38,967 nucleotides of DNA from Candidatus Parcubacteria bacterium (lineage in GTDB: Bacteria; Patescibacteriota; Patescibacteriia; Magasanikbacterales; UBA922): assembly GCA_002869205.1 (NCBI GenBank), contig PKTJ01000053.1:1-38967 (forward strand), given 5' to 3'. Positions 1,008-36,500 of this stretch are shown one piece after another. The position numbers and the translations under genes were made by a program. Below the pieces are notes generated by a model. That model was not told where the DNA came from. It saw only the letters and a program-made list of their open reading frames with translations, and made no database searches. The number at the start of each line of letters is the position of its first letter. The first letter of the stretch is position 1.

Positions 1008-1988
1008 ATGGCTACAAAAAATCTAAAAACCTATCTCAAAGAATTTCTCGAACACCTCGAGATTGAAAAAAATCGTAGTGAAAAAACAATTCAAAACTAT
1101 GATTTTTATTTACAAAGATTTCTCGAATGGCTTGGTGACAAAAAAGGACCATCGGCCATAACGGGAGAAAAAGTACGTAAATATCGACTCTGGCTCAATC
1201 GCCTCGTAGATGTGCATGGCGAACCTTTGAAAAAAAACACACAAAACTACCACCTTATAGCTTTGCGGTCATTCCTCAAGTACATGGCAAAACGTGATGT
1301 AGACACACTAGCTCCTGAAAAAATTGAGCTCATGAAAATGCCAGACCGAGAAGTAAGCTTTCTTGAAGGCAGTGACCTGAATCGCATATTAGAATCCCCT
1401 TTCAAAAATATCAGTAGCAAACAACTCGAAAAACAAAGTGCCAAAGGTAAAACCCCTCCGACACTACTCATTGCACATAGAGACAAATCAATGTTGGAAC
1501 TCTTCTTCTCAACAGGTTTACGTGTGTCAGAACTGGTGAAGTTAAAGATTGAACATATAAATCTCAAACGAGATGAATTTAGTATCACGGGAAAAGGTGG
1601 AAAGACACGTGTCGTATTTTTGTCTGAACAGGCAAAATATTGGATAAAAAAATATCTCGACCTACGTGGTGATATGAATCCGTTTCTCTTTATTTCTCAT
1701 GACAAACGGACAGGCGGTAATGATGATGACACCCCTCTAACACCACGCTCTGTACAACGTATTGTACAAAAACACGCACGCGAAGCAGGTATCACCAAAT
1801 CAGTCACTCCACATACCATGCGTCACTCATATGCTACAGATTTATTGCAAAACGGAGCTGACATCAGAAGTGTGCAAGCCATGCTCGGCCACTCTTCTAT
1901 CACAACGACTCAAATCTACACACACATTACAGACAAAGAGTTAAGAAATATACATAAGAAATTTCACGATAAAGATCGTAATAAATAA
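1008..1988 (+). CDS. Tyrosine recombinase (XerC/XerD-like)
   Basis: N-terminal SAM-like core-binding domain; catalytic motifs TGLRVSEL, HTMRHSYATDLLQNGADIRSVQAMLGHSSITTTQIYTHI. Confidence 0.9.
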   Translation: MATKNLKTYLKEFLEHLEIEKNRSEKTIQNYDFYLQRFLEWLGDKKGPSAITGEKVRKYRLWLNRLVDVHGEPLKKNTQNYHLIALRSFLKYMAKRDVDTLAPEKIELMKMPDREVSFLEGSDLNRILESPFKNISSKQLEKQSAKGKTPPTLLIAHRDKSMLELFFSTGLRVSELVKLKIEHINLKRDEFSITGKGGKTRVVFLSEQAKYWIKKYLDLRGDMNPFLFISHDKRTGGNDDDTPLTPRSVQRIVQKHAREAGITKSVTPHTMRHSYATDLLQNGADIRSVQAMLGHSSITTTQIYTHITDKELRNIHKKFHDKDRNK

Positions 1989-3232: not shown

Positions 3233-3277
3233 GGGGTGGCTAACGGGAATTCCTGCCTGCCGGCAGGCAGGGAACCC
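3233..3277 (-). repeat. Broken tRNA-His copy, 3' (T-arm/acceptor) portion interrupted by a 20-bp palindrome
   Basis: GGGGTGGCTAACGGGAATT...GAACCC matches 3304-3328, with CCTGCCTGCCGGCAGGCAGG inserted. Confidence 0.8.
3252..3271. repeat. 20-bp perfect palindrome CCTGCCTGCCGGCAGGCAGG
   Basis: Self-complementary sequence, inserted relative to the intact tRNA-His copy. Confidence 0.9.
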
Positions 3278-3304
3278 TTTCGTAAATAAAGCAAATCAAA
3301 ATAG

Positions 3305-3379
3305 GGGTGGCTAACGGGAATTGAACCCGTATTGCCGGTACCACAAACCAGAGTAATAACCATTATACCATAGCCACCC
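3305..3379 (-). tRNA. tRNA-His(GTG)
   Basis: Reverse strand GGGTGGCTATGGTATAATGGTTATTACTCTGGTTTGTGGTACCGGCAATACGGGTTCAATTCCCGTTAGCCACCC; anticodon loop TTGTGGT; G-1:C73 pair; CCA not encoded. Confidence 0.85.
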
Positions 3380-3425
3380 CTATTTTGACTTTAAAAAACA
3401 ATATCTCTTGAGTCCAAACATAAAT

Positions 3426-3463
3426 ACAAACCAGAGTAATAACCATTATACCATAGCCACCCC
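3426..3463 (-). repeat. Broken tRNA-His copy, 5' half (acceptor strand to anticodon loop)
   Basis: 38-bp identical match ACAAACCAGAGTAATAACCATTATACCATAGCCACCCC to the intact tRNA-His. Confidence 0.85.
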
Positions 3464-35220: not shown

Positions 35221-36500
35221 ATGATCGACGGCCGGACGCAGAGCGTATCGCAGAAGCGAAACGTGCGCCGGCCGGAAAAGAGCGAGGCAGGGAGCCGGAT
35301 GGTGTCGCGACACGGGGTCGCGAATGCCCGAGCTCGGGTGATCGGTGCGCTACTCGCGCACGAGGGTGTTGGCGTCGATGGGGAAGGAGCCGACGATCGT
35401 CATGGGCGAGCCAGCAGAGTCCGTCCCACGCGCCTGCACCATCGTCAGCGAGGCCTGGATCGACGCCTGGGGCAGGAACTGGTCGGTGAGGTCACAGCGG
35501 ACCCAGACATTCTCCTGACCACCGGCCATGACCCAGATGGGCGTGATCCAGGAGGGGCCGACCTCGAAGCGGTAGACCCACTCGCCCTGGTTCTGGCCCG
35601 GGCTGATCATGAACGGGTACACGGTGGTCGCCCACATGTCGTACCCTACCATGATGTCACAGGCGCCGACGGCCTGCTGAGAGGCGACGCCCGTCACGCT
35701 GACACGCAGACCGAGCTTCCTGACCTCCGTATCCTCGAACTCCGCCACGAAGACCCACATCCCGAGACGGACGTCGTTCCCGATCGAAAACGTCCCGACC
35801 GGAGTGATCGTGGAGAGGACGACGTGCAGGTTGCCCTCCTGCTGGTAGAGCGGCAAACAGGAGCCTCCGTTGCACAGGAAGCCCTGCTCGCACTCCGCGT
35901 TGATGTCGCACCCGCCGATGGGCGTCCAGGCACAGATGCCACCGTAGTACCCACCCTTACTCGACGGCGGATTCGGATCGGGGACGCACTCGCCCACGAA
36001 GCCCTCTGCGGTGAGGTCAGGGCACATCAGCTCCGGGTCGTAGTCGAGAAGACCTGGCGCGCACATGTACGAGTACGCTCCACACGTACCGTCCATCAGC
36101 ATGTGATCGATGGTGCGCGGGTCTTCGTCGTCGCAGATCGGCTGACAGACGCCAGCCACACTGCCGTCCGACGGCATGTCGACGTAGAGACAGATGCCAA
36201 CCGCATCGCAGTCGGCGTCGCCGATGCAACGACCACCACATCCGAGCTCGCCGACGCAGTCGGTGTCGTCGCAGTCGGTCTGGCCGTCCAGGTCGTTATC
36301 GATGCCGTCGAAGCAGTACTCGACCACTTCATCCGGCTCGACAGGGACACAGTCCCCGCCGGTGTTGCCGAGCGCCAGAAGCGCCAGAAGCGCCGCGAGC
36401 GCGACCAGGCCCAAACGGACCTTTCGGTTTCTCATTGATTCCCTCCCAGAAAAAGAGATCGGAACAAAGCACGGACCTTCCGCACAAATAACCGACCCCT
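35221..36500. other. High-GC island of foreign composition
   Basis: Abrupt visible change from AT-rich to strongly GC-rich sequence and back; open frames on several strands, as expected of GC-rich DNA. Confidence 0.85.
35350..36435 (-). CDS. Secreted Cys-rich protein with MopE/Ca-binding-like DxDxDG motif (GC-rich, likely foreign)
   Basis: Signal-like MRNRKVRLGLVALAALLALLALGNTGGDC; EYCFDGIDNDLDGQTDCDDTDC; SD GGGAGGG upstream of ATG. Confidence 0.75.
   Translation of the reverse strand: MRNRKVRLGLVALAALLALLALGNTGGDCVPVEPDEVVEYCFDGIDNDLDGQTDCDDTDCVGELGCGGRCIGDADCDAVGICLYVDMPSDGSVAGVCQPICDDEDPRTIDHMLMDGTCGAYSYMCAPGLLDYDPELMCPDLTAEGFVGECVPDPNPPSSKGGYYGGICAWTPIGGCDINAECEQGFLCNGGSCLPLYQQEGNLHVVLSTITPVGTFSIGNDVRLGMWVFVAEFEDTEVRKLGLRVSVTGVASQQAVGACDIMVGYDMWATTVYPFMISPGQNQGEWVYRFEVGPSWITPIWVMAGGQENVWVRCDLTDQFLPQASIQASLTMVQARGTDSAGSPMTIVGSFPIDANTLVRE

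Follow-up and report, generated by a model that had tools for sequence, protein, structure and literature searches.

A dispersed 20-bp palindrome splits the ancestral tRNA-His gene of a Patescibacteria genome and inserts as a unit

A broken tRNA gene beside an intact one raises the questions of which copy is the older and whether the sequence that sits in the break arrived there as a unit. The locus considered here lies in a stretch of 38,967 nucleotides from a Candidatus Parcubacteria bacterium (contig PKTJ01000053.1; referred to as the window, to which all positions refer unless stated otherwise), in which a 20-bp perfect palindrome without strand, CCTGCCTGCCGGCAGGCAGG (hereafter PAL), occupies positions 3252-3271. 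PAL splits, in the T loop, the 3' part of a dead tRNA-His gene on the minus strand (3233-3277, composed of 3233-3251 and 3272-3277), which reads GGGTTC^PAL^AATTCCCGTTAGCCACCCC from 3277 to 3233. Deleting PAL in silico joins GGGAATT to GAACCC, which is the T-arm sequence of the intact tRNA-His close by (ARAGORN 3304-3377, minus strand, anticodon GTG), where the two words are contiguous. The first-pass annotation of this DNA had placed the palindrome in the T loop of a broken tRNA-His and had read it as an insertion without lost bases; the coordinates and flanks match exactly, and the flanks rejoin as in the intact gene. Its picture of the broken gene holds in so far as PAL cost no base, but the gene is more damaged than had been stated, with about 14 nt missing. 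An intrinsic terminator is not a fitting reading of PAL either, as no T run follows it: the next bases are GAACCC or, read on the opposite strand, AATTCCC.

The history of the locus can be read against a sister species (G001), in which the same flanks surround one intact tRNA-His (G001:C16). In minus-strand order, the locus consists of the ancestral upstream flank, the adjoining 5' part of the ancestral gene (38 nt, 3426-3463), 45 nt of new sequence (3381-3425), the intact tRNA-His (a block of 77 nt, 3304-3380), 26 nt that are new relative to the sister species (3278-3303), the PAL-split 3' part and, below 3233, the ancestral 3' flank, orthologous to that of G001, and the terminator. AAGTCAAAATA closes the 45-nt segment and pairs with TATTTTGATTT on the opposite side, and the new sequence amounts to 148 nt, tRNA included. 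Over its 77 nt, the intact copy does not differ from the sister species' ancestral gene. Because the flanks in G001 enclose a single intact gene, orthology identifies the broken outer tRNA-His as the ancestral gene and the intact copy as a newcomer nested inside it.

PAL is not a chance sequence. None would be expected by chance in the window, and the 1.06-Mb genome (G000) holds eight exact copies, or 12 when up to three mismatches are allowed. It was found in 23 of 59 relatives and in 40 of 192 genomes sampled across Patescibacteria (at most 23 copies), and also in Omnitrophota, Bacteroidota, Nitrospirae, Elusimicrobia, Planctomycetes, Verrucomicrobia and other phyla, including the cultured Bacteroidota isolates Longitalea (29 copies), Salegentibacter (12) and Flavivirga (12). 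Sister species differ in their number of copies, with 23 versus one in one genus and 11, two, none and none in another. As a control, the reversed PAL was counted alongside; likewise palindromic and of equal composition, it was absent from every genome searched with its count (this genome, the relatives, the phylum sample and the isolates). A genome-wide count had been proposed at first pass, where a unique occurrence was held to refute mobility; this refutation fails because PAL is multi-copy genome-wide. Neither the 20-mer nor the peptide that it encodes (LPAGRQ, see below) was found in the literature searched, and four shorter pieces of PAL gave only unrelated matches among the matches listed.

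That PAL inserts as a unit, without loss of bases, had been put forward from the tRNA-His locus alone and is now well supported by pairs of occupied and empty sites. In all 14 local pairs that could be resolved, the occupied site differs by exactly +20 bp, with nothing lost or duplicated, in a test that left the junction free to lose or gain up to six bases. An intact copy of the joined flanks (at least 12 nt) lies within 400 bp at 21 of 153 sites, compared with 0.75% of random points. One orthologous pair, at Leu-CAA, agrees: the sister species carries GTGGTGGAA^PAL^TTGGTAGAC, the gene of this genome is uninterrupted, and the difference is again exactly +20. Direct repeats of 1-6 bp beside PAL do not clearly exceed chance, and there is thus no clear target-site duplication; the few flanking direct repeats of 7-8 bp fall in tandem words and are explained by runs of near-identical 7-9 bp words around PAL (AATTACG, TCTAAAA, GTTTAATG and AAAAATC, at L079, L069, L111, L118 and L254). 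The junctions are biased: A^T was observed 53 times against 16 expected (n=201), and A at -1 is found together with T at +1 more often than expected by chance (P = 0.003, n=272), which makes the bias two-sided. No fixed tetranucleotide was seen within 12 nt of PAL at 154-201 sites, the strongest bias being T at +1 (45%). In one genome (G022), a PAL variant is nested near the centre of another PAL at two loci. Longer dispersed repeats carry PAL at an identical internal position, namely GGCTA^CGCC and GAAGAA^TCTG in G007 (L232, L234, L236, L239, L244, L025) and G049 (L015, L213, L214, L215). This could reflect either repeated targeting or passenger spread and, since several repeat families show it, some copies may have spread as passengers.

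PAL is also found within conserved protein genes, where it reads CTG CCT GCC GGC AGG CAG and is translated as LPAGRQ. Six proteins align to solved homologues in frame on both sides of this insert: CTP synthase (L023), chorismate synthase (L096), alanyl-tRNA synthetase of a Salegentibacter isolate (L421), RecG (L113), PurM of Agriterribacter humi (L399) and a CobT-like enzyme (L254). The PurM insert measures exactly seven residues. A bare insertion of 20 bp shifts the frame, so only net changes of +18 or +21 survive in genes, and the precision of insertion cannot be demonstrated there.

The tRNA-His locus is one of many such targets. Six of the eight copies in this genome have a tRNA no more than 250 bp away (P about 2e-9) and, of the 153 sites, 15 have joined flanks with a tRNA alignment that runs across the junction, compared with 0.9% of control points (P about 1e-11). 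A later set comprised 34 tRNA matches, of which three doubtful ones (L050, L066, L074) were left out; PAL sits in the D, T or anticodon loop in 24 of the remaining 31, against 39% expected (P about 2e-5). Structured targets, and above all these three tRNA loops, are thus demonstrably over-represented among PAL sites. Outside tRNAs, targeting of hairpin loops is weak (stems of at least 6 bp at 7.9% versus 3.1%), minimum-energy folds gave no clear loop enrichment, and an Rfam scan of eight loci returned nothing except tRNA. The joined flanks form a complete tRNA at none of the 153 sites, so the PAL-bearing copies are truncated or decayed; on the same count, PAL is ruled out as a spliceable insert in tRNA. 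Two loci deserve separate mention. On a viral contig (L284, 2239-2330 of that locus), ARAGORN predicts a tRNA-Met of 92 nt in which PAL itself forms the long arm, and PAL may accordingly be mis-annotated as a variable arm. At a contig end of Agriterribacter humi (L406), two tRNA-Arg fragment copies with PAL in the D loop lie 340 bp apart, and the ORF between them resembles, by eye, a small GIY-YIG nuclease.

Truncated tRNA copies are found in this genome beside Ile-GAT, Ser-GCT (two copies), Arg-CCT, Leu-GAG, His, Glu-CTC, Arg-GCG and, less clearly, Ser-GGA; every one has PAL or another hairpin at its break, and none of the remaining tRNA types, out of 36 examined, has a truncated copy beside it. 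In the second Ser-GCT fragment the interruption is CCTTCGACTCCCTACGGTCGCTCAGGACAGG, and in the Arg-GCG fragment it is TCCACCTTCGCTTAAGCTTCGGCGGA, at tRNA position 12^13. At Leu-GAG, both the fragment in the sister species and the hairpin in its D loop differ from those found here. PAL is therefore one of several families with this habit. Truncated copies also hold other hairpin units, for example ones resembling TCAGCCAAAGGCTGATCAGCCTTTGGCTGA or TCCGCCTTCGCTAAAGCTTCGGCGGA, either at tRNA position 12^13 or within the D loop (L304, L316 and L383 in G019; L207 in G000; L334 and L329 in G001). At Ile-GAT, PAL occupies the orthologous site in two species. At Arg-CCT, the fragment broken by PAL matches the intact gene of the sister species and the intact gene here is divergent, and at Leu-CAA the roles of the two genomes are reversed. 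The divergence of the intact genes at these two loci implies that the functional gene was replaced by a tRNA with the same anticodon and not merely duplicated, unlike at the His locus, where newcomer and old gene are identical. As far as gene comparisons can establish it, tRNA genes that were hit have been replaced; the link of PAL to the replacement is inferred, and it has not been shown that PAL came first. In a genome of the same family that lacks PAL (G014), at least seven different tRNA genes (L364, L323, L315, L371, L377, L368, L305) are followed downstream by an element of about 88 nt with conserved hairpins. In several cases this element is bracketed by copies of tRNA sequence, an inverted one of the T arm of the tRNA concerned and a direct one of the 3' end of that tRNA, from the T loop on; the element shows compensatory changes in seven of 18 predicted pairs and had no Rfam match in the five loci scanned.

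In our view, PAL is likely to be a minimal non-autonomous mobile palindromic element of 20 bp, placed as a unit by an enzyme acting in trans and hitting tRNA loops. As the occupied and empty pairs show, it goes between two bases, preferably A^T, with neither loss nor target duplication, probably through a recombinase or transposase that acts on exposed or single-stranded loops, although this enzyme is inferred and has not been found. Trans-acting machinery is invoked since PAL has no gene moving along with it and Y1 transposases are missing from this genome. At the locus studied here, PAL entered the T loop of the ancestral tRNA-His, a gene that is now dead and, by orthology, holds an identical new tRNA-His inside. 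We infer, as the preferred order, that damage to the loop by the hairpin came first, that selection then favoured a second tRNA gene with the same anticodon, and that decay of the old copy followed. Within protein genes, insertions persist only when the reading frame is kept, which gives the six-residue LPAGRQ insert. More tentatively, and with the odds in our estimate against it, loops of tRNA genes that are essential and single-copy may be hit again and again in these reduced bacteria by tiny hairpins, PAL and others, which would drive turnover of the tRNA set, the crippled gene being taken over by a same-anticodon duplicate or a foreign tRNA and decaying alongside it.

The order of events could also be the opposite, a possibility that we regard as real, if not the favoured one: the new tRNA would have come first, by duplication or on foreign DNA, possibly left behind by an integrative element with its att sites in tRNA loops, with PAL entering the redundant copy later. 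Fragments beside intact tRNAs are the usual relics of integration (PMC9897764), the intact genes at Arg-CCT and Leu-CAA diverge from the ancestral ones, and no PAL-bearing tRNA copy is otherwise complete. Yet truncated copies in this genome carry hairpins and tRNAs without a nearby hairpin insert have no truncated copy, and at eight copies per Mb it is very unlikely that PAL landed by chance in so many fragments. Nor does a dead copy give any reason for the loop preference, and the insert at the His locus measures about 150 bp, not kilobases.

For the identity of the mobiliser, the first-pass annotation had suggested a REP-associated tyrosine transposase. According to this explanation, PAL is a REP-type element moved by a REP-associated Y1 transposase (TnpA-REP, also referred to as RAYT) on single-stranded hairpins of the lagging-strand template. 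PAL is indeed a short, perfect and dispersed hairpin that inserts without target duplication, and group 3 REPs may be perfect palindromes (PMC8266576). However, the suggestion found no support, as Y1 (PF01797) had no match in this genome and is absent from five relatives with 5-15 copies of PAL (G007, G013, G019, G027, G052). Y1 genes are somewhat commoner in relatives with PAL (11 of 23) than in those without (9 of 36), an association that is not significant among these 59 genomes (Fisher P = 0.09). Neither a GTAG nor a CGTC tag accompanies PAL, and a guide tetranucleotide would give a one-sided junction preference; the two-sided bias and the missing tag both argue against this route, which we consider unlikely. 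No gene linked to PAL was seen, although only Y1 was searched for systematically, and a scan for GIY-YIG motifs near PAL gave a weak signal (four sites versus 1.4 expected). Within the window, a tyrosine recombinase of the phage-integrase family is encoded 1.2 kb from PAL (1008-1988, plus strand), for which no link to PAL has been shown and for which a XerC/D-like housekeeping role is possible. Further along, a GC-richer segment (45%) at 35221-36438 has long ORFs on both strands, of which a minus-strand ORF of 361 aa has no Pfam match.

More doubtful still is that PAL is an excision scar, that is, two 10-bp terminal inverted repeats abutting after loss of a transposon interior. Its sequence does amount to inverted CCTGCCTGCC ends back to back and its junction preference is symmetric, but a scan of 35 genomes for both arms 1-30 bp apart returned only nested or slipped PAL, there is no target-site duplication, and a mechanism of its own would be needed to join the arms exactly, with no spacer, at more than 200 sites. 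An artefact of assembly or library, or an effect of composition, would suit the many matches from metagenome-assembled genomes and is already refuted by the cultured isolates, the in-frame copies in conserved genes, the Ile-GAT site common to two species and the empty control.

Among known systems, miniature inverted-repeat transposable elements (MITEs) are, like PAL, non-autonomous, dispersed and built of inverted repeats, but PAL lacks a target-site duplication, leaves no room between its repeats and has no cognate transposase that we could find. Single-stranded transposition of the IS200/IS605 type relies on a one-sided guide or target motif that PAL, with its two-sided A^T bias, does not meet. 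The double-hairpin elements and GC clusters of fungal mitochondria are likewise mobile hairpins, with reported insertions in genes for structural RNAs; they differ from PAL in sequence and in their organelle setting and serve as a lead only. Truncated tRNA relics of integrative elements are partial copies beside intact ones, with breaks in the T, anticodon and D arms (PMC9897764). PAL loci share the partial tRNA beside an intact one, but fragment and intact copy are close (mostly within about 300 bp) and the break holds a 20-bp palindrome; the roughly 150-bp His insert contains no integrase gene, the integrase-family gene at 1008-1988 being outside it. GTAG-tagged REPs, associated with RAYT/TnpA-REP, are small dispersed hairpins found mostly outside genes (PMC8266576), similar to PAL in size, dispersal and insertion without target-site duplication, whereas PAL has neither the GTAG tag nor strand asymmetry, occurs in low copy (1-29) and resides here in a genome without Y1. 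Rickettsia palindromic elements (RPEs) and the CGTC-tagged REP superfamily are short palindromes dispersed in and between genes, some of them in protein genes, for which no dedicated transposase is known (PMC3733652). PAL shares with them its dispersal and its in-frame presence in protein genes, and no transposase is known for it so far, from a search that was systematic only for Y1; it differs in being 20 bp, perfectly symmetric and free of the CGTC tag, in recurring as one identical sequence in several phyla, and in having tRNA loops as a recurrent target. The best reading is hence that of a tag-less, cross-phylum mobile palindrome of the REP/RPE kind, moved by an unidentified trans-acting enzyme whose existence is inferred. 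If this is right, the precise movement of PAL calls for an unknown mobiliser, and PAL would account naturally for broken tRNA copies beside intact ones, for tRNA gene replacement in Patescibacteria and for LPAGRQ recurring as an insert in conserved proteins. It would then rank, as a tag-less, symmetric and precisely inserting 20-mer common to distant phyla, among the smallest mobile DNA units known.
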